Of a stretch of 64,000 nucleotides of DNA, positions 34,114 to 43,953 are shown piece by piece. A program made the position numbers and the translations under genes. The notes under the pieces are model-generated. The model had not been told where the DNA came from. It did not search any database and saw nothing but the letters and a program-made list of their open reading frames with translations. Location: NCBI RefSeq assembly GCF_000011905.1, contig NC_002936.3, positions 1,364,001 through 1,428,000 on the forward strand, read 5' to 3'. The stretch is from Dehalococcoides mccartyi 195. GTDB taxonomy: Bacteria > Chloroflexota > Dehalococcoidia > Dehalococcoidales > Dehalococcoidaceae. How positions within the stretch are numbered: the first letter of the stretch is position 1; every line of letters begins with the position of its first letter.

Positions 34114-35736
34114 TTACATGGGGCTGTAGCTTAGTTGGGAGAGCGCTGCGTTCGCATCGCAGAGGTCAGGGGTTCGAATCCCCTCAGCTCCACCAAAGGT
34201 ATCAATAGGTAGAACTTCCCTTCTTCTGTTAGTTCCCGGTAGCGGCAGGGTATATTTCAAGCTCACATTACGGCTATCTGTTTCAATCTTCTTAACAAAA
34301 GTCTTTAAGAAAGTCTTGCAGTCGGTTATCTCCGATTCGTTAAGCAGCTGTTTAAGGTCATTTGCATAGGCTTTAACCATCCCAAGATTAAAATTGTCGT
34401 CACTATCAGCTACCATCTCAGCTTCAGCTAATACCCTGGACTTTTCAAGTTTAGACTGCCGTTCCCTAAGCTCTCTTATCCGGGGCGCCAGATCGTCATA
34501 ATTTAACTTGCCGCTTTCAATAGCCTCATACAGGCGGTTTAACCTCTGTCTGATATCATCCAGTTCGGCATCCAAAACGGCCAGCTTTTCCTTATGATGG
34601 CTGGAAGTTGATTCAAGTTCCTCATTGACCTGTTTTACTAGTTCCTCCAGATTTTCTTCGGTTAATACCTTGGACTTTATTTGCTTAATAACAGCTGATT
34701 CCAATTTTGTTTTAGGTATTGCCTGGCAGTTACAGACCCCGTTTCCCTGTTTAAACTTCCGGTTACACTGATAGTACGCATACTGGCCTGATTTGGCACT
34801 GTGCCCGGTCAGAGCCGCACCACAGGAGCAAAAAGCCATTCCGCTTAACAGGTACTGGCTGGGTACTGTCCGGGGGTGGGTATTTTTAGGCTGGCGGGAG
34901 ACCATGCTCTGCTGGATACGCTGGAAAGTTTCCTTGTCTATAATACCCGGCCAGGCATTTTCTAACCGCACTGCCTCTTCATTTTTAGCCAGACCTTGGC
35001 TGGGTCTGGCTCCCCATACCAGAGTGCCTGTATAGGCTTCATTGCAGAGTATCTTATGAACCGTCGTCCTGCCCCAGGGTTTACCTGCCTTAGTTATATA
35101 TTCTTCCCGGTTGAGAATATTGGCTATTTCTTTACAGCCCTTGCCTTTATCCGCCAGAGCAAATATGTATCTTACGGTTTTAACTCCCGGAGAGGTATCC
35201 GCTTCGGGGGCAAGTTTATTCCGTTGCTTTGGGCCATCCTTCACTTTTACAAGTTCATATCCTAAAGGCGGCTGGCTTCCGTTATAAAATCCCCTGAGGG
35301 CATTTTCTTTCATTCCCCGCTTTATATCCTGCCCTAAGTTGGCTGAATAAAATTCGTCCAGAGACTCTATTATTCCTTCCATCAGCTTGCCGGTGGGTGA
35401 ATCGTCAAGGGGTTCGTTTATGGAGATGACTTTAATGCCCTTTTTCTGAAGCAGTAGTTTATAGGTAATAGAGTCAGCCCGGTTACGGGCAAAGCGATTA
35501 AGTTTCCAGACTAATATAGCTTCGAAAGGTGGTATGGATGACTTGGACATGGCTATCATCCGTTTAAATTCAGGTCTGGCGGCAGTCCGCCCGCTTTCAG
35601 CCTCATCTATAAATTCATAAGTAATCTGATAGTTATTTTTTCCGGCATAATCCCTAAGTGCCCTTAACTGGGCGGCAATGGATAATTCTACGTCCTGAGC
35701 TTCGCTGGATACCCTGGCGTAAAGTGCGACTTTCAT
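34114..35736 (-). CDS. Large serine recombinase (integrase)
   Basis: 540 residues in the integrated form, from ATG 35736 (AAAGGAGCGGGAA; overlaps the preceding stop as ATGA). The N-terminal resolvase domain has the catalytic YARVSSEAQ (Ser10), the SGRTAARPEF region and a LNRFARN motif. It is followed by a Recombinase domain, a zinc ribbon (CSCGAALTG then CNRKFKQGNGVCNC) and a long coiled coil. The last 22 residues read antisense through tRNA-Ala, an artefact of integration: before insertion the gene would end 14 codons past the core, at TAA 43899-43901. It catalyses attP x attB insertion of this element. Confidence 0.93.
   Translation of the reverse strand: MKVALYARVSSEAQDVELSIAAQLRALRDYAGKNNYQITYEFIDEAESGRTAARPEFKRMIAMSKSSIPPFEAILVWKLNRFARNRADSITYKLLLQKKGIKVISINEPLDDSPTGKLMEGIIESLDEFYSANLGQDIKRGMKENALRGFYNGSQPPLGYELVKVKDGPKQRNKLAPEADTSPGVKTVRYIFALADKGKGCKEIANILNREEYITKAGKPWGRTTVHKILCNEAYTGTLVWGARPSQGLAKNEEAVRLENAWPGIIDKETFQRIQQSMVSRQPKNTHPRTVPSQYLLSGMAFCSCGAALTGHSAKSGQYAYYQCNRKFKQGNGVCNCQAIPKTKLESAVIKQIKSKVLTEENLEELVKQVNEELESTSSHHKEKLAVLDAELDDIRQRLNRLYEAIESGKLNYDDLAPRIRELRERQSKLEKSRVLAEAEMVADSDDNFNLGMVKAYANDLKQLLNESEITDCKTFLKTFVKKIETDSRNVSLKYTLPLPGTNRRREVLPIDTFGGAEGIRTPDLCDANAALSQLSYSPM
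34120..34195 (+). tRNA. tRNA-Ala (CGC)
   Basis: 76 nt with full cloverleaf: acceptor GGGGCTG/CAGCTCC, anticodon loop TTCGCAT with anticodon CGC, T-arm GGGGTTCGAATCCCC, discriminator A and an encoded CCA. It is the attachment site of the element to its right. The encoded CCA (34193-34195) comes from the element side: at the other end the core is followed by TTTT, so the uninterrupted gene would have lacked it. Confidence 0.97.
34183..34217 (+). mobile_element. attL of the serine-integrase element
   Basis: Core CTCAGCTCCA (34183-34192) inside the tRNA acceptor, then the P' arm TATCAATAGGTAGAACTT (34200-34217). The arm is the exact reverse complement of 43925-43942 at the other end, as expected when a serine integrase splits a symmetric attP. 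Confidence 0.85.
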
Positions 35737-36665
35737 TTCCCGCTCCTTTGGCCTTTTAAGCGACGGCAAACATCGCATTCCCCTGGCAGAAAATTGGTTA
35801 AAATCAGAGTTTGAATATCTCTCTTAAGGGTTTGTGTTTCCATTCCAAGTTGTTTATAGGCTTCCCGTATGTATGTGAATTTTTTCAAATTATCGATGCT
35901 TAATAATTTGGTTATTGCTTCCAGACATGCCTCTTCAGCGCCTGGGCAGCTTAATAAAGTGGTACCCGGTTTTATTATTATTTCCCCCCGGTTCTTATTA
36001 ATTTGTAACCTTTCAACTGCTTTTTCAAGTATTGTGCGATCATTTAGAAGTATGAATTTAAAGCTGTTTTTACATATAAAATCAAGCAAAATACCCTTCT
36101 CATCCCTTGCTTCTGCGCATACTTCTATCCCTACTTCTCTCCCCATTCTATCCATACCTTCTACTAATTCTTTTCGGAAGAAGATACACCTATTTATATA
36201 GTTCTCGCATGCTGCTTTCCAACCTTTTAATGAAAAGAAGGTAAGGTTATGGTTTAAATGCTGTTCAACAAGGGTGAAAAGAAGACTGTTTTCAAGTTCT
36301 AAATTAACGATAATATCTGTGGACGACTCAGGTTGCGTGGCAACTACTTTCCCTGCATTAAATTCAATTTTATAAGTATCTTGGTCAAAATAAAACCGGG
36401 TATCGGGCTCCGGCAGGGCAATAGCCGCATCAAGTTCGTTTAAGGTGGCAAGGAGTTGTTCTTGGTGCTTGGTCAGTGCTGTTTTTAGTACCTCAAGTTC
36501 GGCTTGGTCAAAACGGCGTTCCGCTTGAGCTTCGGTTATATATTTGCGGATAGTCCTGATATCCCTACCTTTCCGTTGGGCTAAATGGGCTTCTGACCAG
36601 CCGCTCTCATATAAGTCAAGCCATTCGCGGGTTTCCTTAATAGACGGAGCCTTTTTTCTTGGCAT
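35733..36665 (-). CDS. Integrase-linked protein with N-terminal HTH
   Basis: 310 residues, coupled to the integrase by an ATGA overlap. It begins MPRKKAPSIKETREWLDLYE with a helix-turn-helix (GWSEAHLAQRKGRDIRTIRKYI), then a helical segment, and ends in a CDVCRRLKG motif. No named family. The N-terminal DNA-binding region and tight coupling suggest an accessory (directionality or regulatory) protein for the recombinase; that is inference. Confidence 0.7.
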   Translation of the reverse strand: MPRKKAPSIKETREWLDLYESGWSEAHLAQRKGRDIRTIRKYITEAQAERRFDQAELEVLKTALTKHQEQLLATLNELDAAIALPEPDTRFYFDQDTYKIEFNAGKVVATQPESSTDIIVNLELENSLLFTLVEQHLNHNLTFFSLKGWKAACENYINRCIFFRKELVEGMDRMGREVGIEVCAEARDEKGILLDFICKNSFKFILLNDRTILEKAVERLQINKNRGEIIIKPGTTLLSCPGAEEACLEAITKLLSIDNLKKFTYIREAYKQLGMETQTLKRDIQTLILTNFLPGECDVCRRLKGQRSGK

Positions 36666-36784
36666 ATTTTACCCCCTTGACAGCCTGATAAGTCTGCCTG
36701 TGATTCATTATAACATAATTATATGCTCTTACCAATGCTAATTACAACTAATATATGTATTTTGCGGTTTGTTATTATGAATAT

Positions 36785-36913
36785 ATGGGCAGGAAAAAGA
36801 CAGCCAAGGCAAATTCTATAGACCCCCAGACGATGAAGGGGCTAAAAATCCTTGCCCGGATAATTGTTCGACAGTACTTGATAGATAAAGGAAAAGCCCG
36901 CTCAAATGATTAA
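36785..36913 (+). CDS. Possible 42-residue basic protein
   Basis: ATG 36785 to TAA 36911, encoding a basic peptide (MGRKKTAKANSIDPQTMKGL and onward to KARSND). It is divergent from the integrase operon and ends inside a bidirectional terminator. No clear ribosome site, so it is uncertain. Position and charge would suit a small DNA-binding or excision factor. Confidence 0.4.
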   Translation: MGRKKTAKANSIDPQTMKGLKILARIIVRQYLIDKGKARSND

Positions 36914-36932
36914 ATCCAGAGCGGGCTTTTTA
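36893..36932. terminator. Bidirectional terminator
   Basis: Stem AAAAGCCCGCTC / GAGCGGGCTTTTT with a 13-base loop. T-runs on both strands serve the small plus-strand ORF and the minus-strand gene ending at 36945. Confidence 0.8.
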
Positions 36933-43115: not shown

Positions 43116-43132
43116 CGATATCCGAGGTTAAA

Positions 43133-43813
43133 ATGGGGAATTTATCAGACAATATACGTAACCCAATCAGAATATTTATTGTTGATGACCATGAAATAGT
43201 GAGACAAGGCCTTAAAGTCATTATTAATCAAGAACAGGACTTTGAATTAGTAGGTGAATCAAATGGACAAAAAGGACTCCTGAAGGAAATTGCTGAAGCT
43301 CATCCGGATGTATTATTACTGGACATAAGGATTAGTGGTTCAGATGGATTTGATATTGCTTCACAGCTTAATGAAAAGTTTCCTTCCATAAAAATTCTGA
43401 TAATTTCCGGATATGAAAGTGAATTGTATTTAGTTGAGGCATTAGATCATAAGGTTAGCGGATTTATACCGAAGGGGTCTTCGCGAGATTATGTTTGTTC
43501 AGCGATTCGCATGGTTGCTCTTGGTGGTACAGTTTGGCACGGAGAGCTATTGTACAGAGTTATCAGGGGGTTGAGTAGACTAGGGAATGAACCTAATGAT
43601 ACAAAAGTACAAATAGGGAAAAGCCATTTAAAACCTCGCGAATTAAAAGTACTATCATTATTGGCCAAAGGGAAGTTAAACAAAGAAATATGCTTCGAAC
43701 TACAGATATCGATGGATACTGTTAAAAAAGATATACATCAGTTAAAAAGTAAATACGGAGTGTTTAATCGTACTCAACTTGCTACTATAGCAACTGAGAT
43801 GCAATTAAAGTAA
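43133..43813 (+). CDS. NarL/LuxR-type response regulator (rdhA7)
   Basis: 226 residues. Receiver with Asp18-Asp19, Asp64 (VLLLDIRISGSDG), and LuxR-type helix-turn-helix (LKPRELKVLSLLAKGKLNKE; MDTVKKDIHQLKSKY). Last gene before attR; ends 85 bases before the integrase's predicted original stop. Confidence 0.93.
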   Translation: MGNLSDNIRNPIRIFIVDDHEIVRQGLKVIINQEQDFELVGESNGQKGLLKEIAEAHPDVLLLDIRISGSDGFDIASQLNEKFPSIKILIISGYESELYLVEALDHKVSGFIPKGSSRDYVCSAIRMVALGGTVWHGELLYRVIRGLSRLGNEPNDTKVQIGKSHLKPRELKVLSLLAKGKLNKEICFELQISMDTVKKDIHQLKSKYGVFNRTQLATIATEMQLK

Positions 43814-43898
43814 GTGACTTATCATCAGCAAATATAAATTATTGAGGTCAATTTTATTGGGAGCATAGGGCTCAAACAGCACCCAATTTATGACGTCT

Positions 43899-43953
43899 TT
43901 AACTAATTAGAAATATGAATTGAAAAGTTCTACCTATTGATATCTCAGCTCCA
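43899..43953. mobile_element. attR with the original 3' end of the integrase gene
   Basis: P arm AAGTTCTACCTATTGATA (43925-43942), then core CTCAGCTCCA (43944-43953). On the minus strand the frame that continues from the integrase across the core gives GAG then ISIGRTFQFIFLIS and TAA (43899-43901). This is the piece of the integrase gene separated from it by insertion. Confidence 0.8.

Follow-up and report, generated by a model that had tools for sequence, protein, structure and literature searches.

A putative integrative element with a large serine integrase and reductive dehalogenase cargo at a tRNA-Ala gene of Dehalococcoides mccartyi 195

The stretch analysed here (the window) comprises 64,000 nucleotides of Dehalococcoides mccartyi 195 (contig NC_002936.3, positions 1,364,001 to 1,428,000), and positions 34193-43953 within it very probably constitute an integrative element that inserts at tRNA-Ala 3′ ends by site-specific recombination through its own large serine integrase. 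Comparison with other genomes confirms a genuine serine-integrase element with clear limits, one that has changed both host species and tRNA-Ala gene. Among its cargo are reductive dehalogenase (rdh) genes, which determine the pollutants that Dehalococcoides can respire. The mobility of rdh genes has so far been known mainly from ssrA islands, and the element would represent a second, precisely delimited route, with a crossover interval of 6 bp, attachment sites (attP and attB) that can be put to the test, and copies known from two species.

Ends of the element and its attachment sites

Both ends carry direct copies of the 3′ end of tRNA-Ala(CGC), the core, and these copies are flanked by inverted arms of 18 bp. 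The features that delimit the element, together with its integrase gene and the adjacent open reading frame (ORF), are as follows.

34193-43953: tRNA-Ala-integrated element with rdh cargo, 9,761 bp
34120..34195, + strand: tRNA-Ala(CGC), the target gene (ARAGORN and sequence)
34183..34192, + strand: left core copy CTCAGCTCCA, attL (sequence)
34187..34192, + strand: crossover interval GCTCCA (comparison of the CGC and GGC insertions)
34190-34191: predicted cut dinucleotide CC (arm midpoint)
34200..34217, + strand: left attP arm TATCAATAGGTAGAACTT, doubling as the codons (EVLPID) that close the element-encoded part of the integrase
43925..43942, + strand: right attP arm, the exact reverse complement of TATCAATAGGTAGAACTT (sequence)
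43944..43953, + strand: right core copy CTCAGCTCCA, the attR end (sequence)
34114..35778, - strand: large serine integrase (Pfam resolvase, recombinase and zinc-ribbon domains)
35733..36665, - strand: ORF310, overlapping the integrase start, with homologs 5′ of related integrases

The initial annotation had described a serine-integrase element with an attP readable from both ends, and the exact arms, the core copies and the full integrase domain set bear this out; the arms (34200-34217 and 43925-43942) are exact reverse complements, as it had stated. It had also centred them on the core. The 18-bp inverted arms stand, and the centring was off by a few bases: the arm midpoint is the CC in the middle of an 18-bp spacer, and the 10-bp core does not lie at the centre. 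The organization characteristic of large serine integrase sites, short inverted arms around a central dinucleotide, was thus found on attP in an 18-18-18 arrangement. With up to three mismatches allowed, the arm pattern matched twice in the window, namely at both arms, and 0 of 100 dinucleotide shuffles of the window gave two matches (mean 0.06). Genome-wide, at up to two mismatches, there were three arm places, comprising both element arms and one beside tRNA-Ala(GGC) at 57862. Additionally, the right arm and the first 11 spacer bases matched at 28 of 29 positions, the best matches in three shuffles leaving 12, 12, and 13 mismatches. The element has a G+C content of 40.8%, versus 46.5% and 48.5% on its two sides.

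The integrase is full-length, with PF00239 (residues 17-163), PF07508 (200-292) and PF13408 (310-368) all above the Pfam cut-off. It also has the RVS motif, the serine of which is the catalytic residue. This motif (MKVALYARVSS, from the second ATG) aligns with the RVS of PDB 3guv. The reading frame continues past attL and crosses the tRNA in antisense, with ..EVLPIDTFGGAEGIRTPDLC.. as its tail; on the predicted circle the tail would be ..EVLPIDTFGGAEISIGRTFQFIFLIS. A second integrase in another Dehalococcoides species, which ends at a tandem junction (see below), carries a tail of the EVLPIDTFGGAEISIGRTFQFIFLIS circle kind. The passages of McMurdie 2011 (PMC3146451) on dsiB describe the same overlap and suggest that dsiB may be fully functional on the circle only, so that an integrase overlapping attL was already known in a related system. 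Because the integrase tail is rewritten by each insertion and differs in the circle, it could conceivably sense the integrated versus the circular state, an idea to which we attach little credence.

A copy in a second species and an element-free site

Comparison within the genus covered three Dehalococcoides genomes, specifically that of the window (G000), G001, and G002, the last from a different species. The whole element was present in G002 (locus L061), with 99.35% identity over 9,792 aligned positions (BLASTN, window 34163-43953), at tRNA-Ala(GGC) and not at CGC, and this copy likewise starts and stops at the core, at a different tRNA gene. Host DNA just upstream of tRNA-Ala(GGC) is 84.5% identical between the two genomes, which argues that the element moved recently relative to its hosts. 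The tRNA-Ala(CGC) gene of G002 is without the element and runs straight into TTTTTCTG, and similarity to the right flank of the window extends over the next 100 bases (score 17.0; 500 shuffles with mean -2.8, standard deviation 4.7, maximum 13). The attB that had been predicted, the tRNA end followed by TTTTCCC, therefore found its counterpart in a genome whose element lies at another tRNA-Ala gene, and the proposed comparison with an element-free tRNA-Ala(CGC) yielded a site resembling that attB, though with a remnant about 0.85 kb further on.

At the CGC insertion, chromosomal TTTTCCC begins immediately 3′ of the core. At the GGC insertion of G002, the tRNA side of attL reads TCCGGCTCCA and the element side of attR reads CTCAGCTCCA, with TCCG versus CTCA directly before GCTCCA. 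Together, these junctions place the exchange within GCTCCA (34187-34192), and the arm midpoint CC at 34190-34191, which is independent of the site comparison, falls inside this interval. At the level of sequence, the comparison thus shows both ends of the element, insertion at two tRNA-Ala genes, an element-free CGC site, and transfer between species.

Between the window and G002 copies there were 59 differences, of which 49 lay within 39810-41564 (rdhAB and its 3′ side), four at the right arm and none in the integrase and ORF310; both copies carry an unbroken integrase ORF of the same sequence. The four differences fall within 7 bases (window 43937-43943 and L061 10169-10187), and outside rdhAB the element is otherwise nearly identical. 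In the G002 tandem (L061 10169-10222), the junction between both elements is attP-like, and of the second element's integrase a 3′ portion of 339 aa is present, at 70% identity. At tRNA-Ala(CGC) of G001, a 1.06-kb remnant lies between degenerate arms. Arms lacking an integrase also occur elsewhere in the genus, for example at G002:1298512, G001:339074, and G001:46998. The initial annotation had held that arms at unrelated places without an integrase would speak against the element; such places do exist, and the ones that were read lie next to a tRNA or to a core-like sequence and appear to be remnants. To the right of the element, an ORF of 240 aa (44035-44757) lies inside strain-variable DNA between tRNA-Ala and conserved sequence, and had no match in a PHROGs scan.

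Related elements, tRNA targeting, and alternative explanations

In the window genome, the element IE1 (L062, G000:56362-76361) stands at tRNA-Ala(GGC) and has the same integrase and ORF310, at 99.8% over 2.66 kb. Beyond ORF310, it carries phage-type genes for replication (polymerase and helicase), a methyltransferase, and a small terminase. In the passages of McMurdie 2009 (PMC2764846) that concern them, both IE1 and IE9 of strain 195 are described as apparently inserted at tRNA-Ala, a target they share with the window element, as they do the strain 195 genome; those passages mention neither att sites and arms nor a crossover, an empty site, or a copy in a second species. The window element most likely corresponds to all or part of IE9, and the novelty that had been claimed for an rdh element at tRNA-Ala has to be withdrawn. 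In the literature searched, we found its placement at tRNA-Ala already in print, and found neither the att anatomy, the crossover interval, the second-species copy, the tRNA-directed family, nor the shift between isoacceptors.

Two elements from a different genus of the family show the same attP design. The first is common to G029 (at tRNA-Ala TGC) and G031 (at tRNA-Ala CGC), where its right end reads CTTCGCTCCA and the two copies diverge right after GCTCCA, at the same base as for the window element; the sequence they have in common is 99.7-100% identical, and they also differ by large insertions or deletions. The second, at tRNA-Ala(GGC) of G029 (D29_GGC), has a different 18-bp arm, which pairs at 18/18 positions. 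Across six attP readings, the spacer was 18 bases in all six and the midpoint was CC in five, the degenerate G001 remnant having CT, while the arms paired at 18/18, 15/18, 15/18, 15/18, 18/18, and 13/18 positions (the last being the G001 remnant). Moreover, a stretch common to D29_CGC and D31_TGC encodes two genes resembling rdhA and two resembling cbiZ, so the window is not alone in this integrase family in having rdh cargo. No right end was found for D29_CGC, D31_TGC, or D32_GGC after extension to 56-60 kb. We also noted that two elements common to G029 and G031, genomes of two species (L108/L109 and L112/L113 with extensions; at least 98.8% identical) each sit at a different tRNA-Ala gene per genome.

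Relatives of the integrase were present in 96 of 156 genomes of the order. From the matches listed, 55 family loci were chosen by hand, leaving out fragments and several matches, and these rows are not independent: L102 equals L139, L061 and L062 are 100% copies of the window integrase, and at least two elements (L108/L109 and L112/L113) occur in two genomes each. A tRNA 3′ end, identified with ARAGORN, faced the integrase 3′ end within 60 bp at 35 of the 55 loci (Ala, Val, Ile, Asn, Met, and Leu). Among these 35, the facing tRNA was Ala in 13 of 14 cases with integrase identity of at least 54% and in 0 of 21 with identity of 50% or less. As controls, 20 distant recombinase loci were taken and 4 without a match dropped; the 16 left (24-31% identity) had a facing tRNA in 1 and tmRNA in 4, with most control matches ending before the end of the gene and a facing tRNA accepted at any distance in control DNA. 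Scans of public genome contigs returned 2 distant loci, none from the genus, and scans of viral contigs with the integrase, the arm pattern, and RdhA gave no match; both may have left out records near the window, so neither result speaks for rarity. Directly 5′ of the integrase, ORF310 homologs occurred at 20 of 38 loci, another protein family at 15, and neither at 3, in a count that includes one place twice (L101 = L114). ORF310 is a candidate accessory or directionality protein. The protein that replaces it, with a conserved HE.RE stretch, was seen at L106-L109, L114-L116, L120, L066, L071, L072, L088, L089, L099, and L101.

These patterns lead us to favor, with some reservation, a clade of large serine integrases in the Dehalococcoides order that is dedicated to tRNA 3′ ends, with an attP arm in the integrase 3′ end, a cut at the last acceptor-stem bases, an amino acid specificity set by subclade, and interchangeable isoacceptor genes, such that rdh elements shift between tRNA-Ala genes across species. 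If true, such a clade would contradict the statement in a 2014 database paper that tRNA genes are not among the known targets of serine integrases; the relevant passages of a 2025 resource from the same line of work (PMC12424338) hold no count of serine integrases in tRNA genes, and those of McMurdie 2011 had already put a serine integrase at tmRNA. The window element itself bears on whether tRNA genes serve as serine integrase targets and would supply integrases with short, widely conserved target sites.

Under the proposed mechanism, an attP of about 54 bp, in which two 18-bp inverted arms surround an 18-bp spacer duplicating the 3′ end of the tRNA, would be paired by the integrase with the 3′ end of a tRNA-Ala gene for conservative recombination. 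The integrase would cut at the CC closing the acceptor stem and rejoin the ends, leaving a whole tRNA at attL and a copy of the tRNA end at attR. The tRNA-Ala(CGC) gene is left whole, the crossover falling within the final bases of its 3′ end, and several isoacceptor genes could act as attB because tRNA-Ala genes share that end. Several parts of this scheme are inferred: that the window integrase is the catalyst, that the cut falls exactly at the CC, that the element leaves as a circle, that a directionality factor is required, and how the element travels between cells.

A number of observations weigh against an element that integrates in this manner. The CGC site of G002 is not pristine, given the arm-and-core remnant about 0.85 kb downstream; the G002 right arm deviates at 3 of 18 positions; and the G002 copy stands in tandem with a second element at one tRNA-Ala(GGC) site. 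The right flank of G001 did not resemble that of the window above chance (score 5.0; shuffles with mean -1.0, maximum 9.5), and IE1 had no recognizable right arm and core in 35.6 kb. Right ends were found at 2 of 27 family loci at up to 20 kb per locus and at 3 of 6 loci extended to 56-60 kb, although absence at 20 kb says little, since three right ends surfaced on extension. By ARAGORN, 20 of the 55 family loci had no facing tRNA, among them three at or near contig ends and five rows (four places) with a reversed tRNA-Ala-like core, the rest fitting neither case. Finally, the circular junction, excision, and integrase activity are predictions from sequence. At L114, L115, L102/L139, and L148, the tRNA-Ala-like core at the integrase 3′ end reads the opposite way, as if the integrase were at the attR end.

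It is conceivable, though doubtful, that the element is a dead remnant, integrated once by a serine integrase and now fixed, and that its distribution over G000 and G002 goes back to an old transfer, or to homologous recombination through the integrase and tRNA sequences they have in common. That the element undergoes homologous exchange is indicated by the 49 of 59 copy differences in rdhAB; the integrase module is also 99.8% shared with IE1 within one genome. However, the G002 copy is bounded by the core at another tRNA gene, where homologous exchange would bring unique flanks, and the integrase ORF is unbroken and without a single difference between the copies.

That the element is a satellite of temperate phages, using a phage-type integrase and travelling between cells inside helper prophage particles (from an intact IE1 relative, for instance), is unlikely. 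The 9.8 kb of the element is a satellite-like size, and IE1 of the same genome shares the integrase and ORF310 before continuing into phage-type genes, but the helper is hypothetical and no packaging or capsid-interference gene occurred among 7 element proteins in PHROGs. These 7 proteins, a set that leaves out rdhA, cbiZ, and the two-component proteins, matched integrase, recombinase, and helix-turn-helix (HTH) families only, with no prophage structural or packaging genes. That the arms are coding or regulatory sequence only, and not recombination sites, is scarcely credible: the left arm encodes the conserved EVLPID at the integrase C-terminus, with similar sequence in related integrase genes, yet the right arm is exact, lies outside every ORF of at least 80 aa, and abuts a core copy where the G002 similarity stops, and the D29_GGC arm differs and still pairs exactly over 18 bp.

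Cargo genes and comparison with known systems

Between ORF310 and the right arm, the element encodes the following.

36945..37535, - strand: 196-aa protein with an N-terminal hydrophobic stretch (no match in family scans)
37624..37842, + strand: small HTH regulator, HTH_3 (family match)
38203..38463, + strand: 86-aa ORF (no match in family scans)
38505..39305, - strand: cbiZ, adenosylcobinamide amidohydrolase (PF01955, 147 bits against a cut-off of 27)
39346..39798, - strand: predicted lipoprotein, 150 aa (sequence features and position; no match in family scans)
40035..40307, - strand: rdhB, putative membrane anchor (position and hydrophobicity)
40340..41788, - strand: rdhA, reductive dehalogenase (TIGR02486, 266 bits against a cut-off of 160; twin-arginine translocation signal)
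42069..43115, + strand: PAS-domain histidine kinase (domains above Pfam cut-offs)
43133..43813, + strand: NarL-like response regulator (NCBIfam models only, scores below cut-offs)

The two-component system is divergent from the block of rdhA, rdhB, lipoprotein, and cbiZ, and this cargo would confer a regulated dehalogenase with its own corrinoid remodelling step. Of the cargo in the initial annotation, rdhA, cbiZ, and the histidine kinase are backed by family cut-offs and the response regulator falls below them; RdhB and the lipoprotein, for which no family scored above a curated cut-off, are named from position and sequence features. The term "complete organohalide-respiration cassette" was an overstatement, as other respiratory genes of D. 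mccartyi 195 lie outside the element, elsewhere in the genome.

The integrases of TP901-1, SPbeta (YokA), and phiC31 have the same domain order and resemble the window integrase in the catalytic domain. These three use attB sites in protein genes, unlike the window element, whose attB is the end of a tRNA gene. For the ssrA islands with DsiB, the relevant passages of McMurdie 2011 likewise describe a serine integrase beside an RNA gene, rdh cargo, tandem accretion, and an integrase whose 3′ end overlaps attL with no stop inside the island. The ssrA islands target tmRNA, whereas the window element lies at tRNA-Ala(CGC) and so is not integrated at ssrA, and the tmRNA-linked recombinases are 24-26% identical to the window integrase. 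The six-gene ssrA module (DsiB, DsiA, RecF, ParB, Mom, and a polymerase-like protein) does not describe the window element either: DsiA, ParB, and Mom are missing among the proteins scanned, and Pfam detected neither ParB, Mom, nor a second serine recombinase among 10 element proteins. There were likewise no relaxase or conjugation genes among 10 proteins by Pfam, with the response regulator scanned by NCBIfam only.

The plasmid pDhc6 of D. mccartyi 11a5 (NZ_CP011128.1) has the block of cbiZ, lipoprotein, rdhB, and rdhA in common with the element, at 93.6% DNA identity. Unlike the element, it is a circle of 5,939 bp whose two-component genes are different ones and which lacks both an integrase and an arm-core pair, and on these grounds we rejected it as the excised circle of the element. 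A corrinoid-salvage gene of its own does not set the element apart, as the initial annotation had proposed, given that cbiZ accompanies rdhA on pDhc6 and in the stretch shared by G029 and G031.

The element rdhA is the last of seven rdhA in the region, and on this basis it is probably DET1559. In one study, DET1559 transcripts appeared in every strain 195 sample. The element RdhA is 96.9% identical to the RdhA of pDhc6. The 11a5 enzyme is named PteA, converting tetrachloroethene (PCE) to trichloroethene (TCE), in published papers, and its equation with the pDhc6 RdhA rests on the title of Zhao 2017 as cited there. With TIGR02486 placing it in the RdhA family and this close identity, the dehalogenase of the element is probably PteA-like, with a presumed substrate to match.

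Between the window and G002, rdhA has a nonsynonymous divergence (dN) of 0.012 and a synonymous divergence (dS) of 0.077, and in a three-way comparison with pDhc6 its differences fall in alternating runs of private sites, forming a mosaic. Diversifying selection on rdhA was therefore rejected, and the low dN relative to dS and the mosaic runs favor the exchange of rdhA alleles by recombination inside the element.

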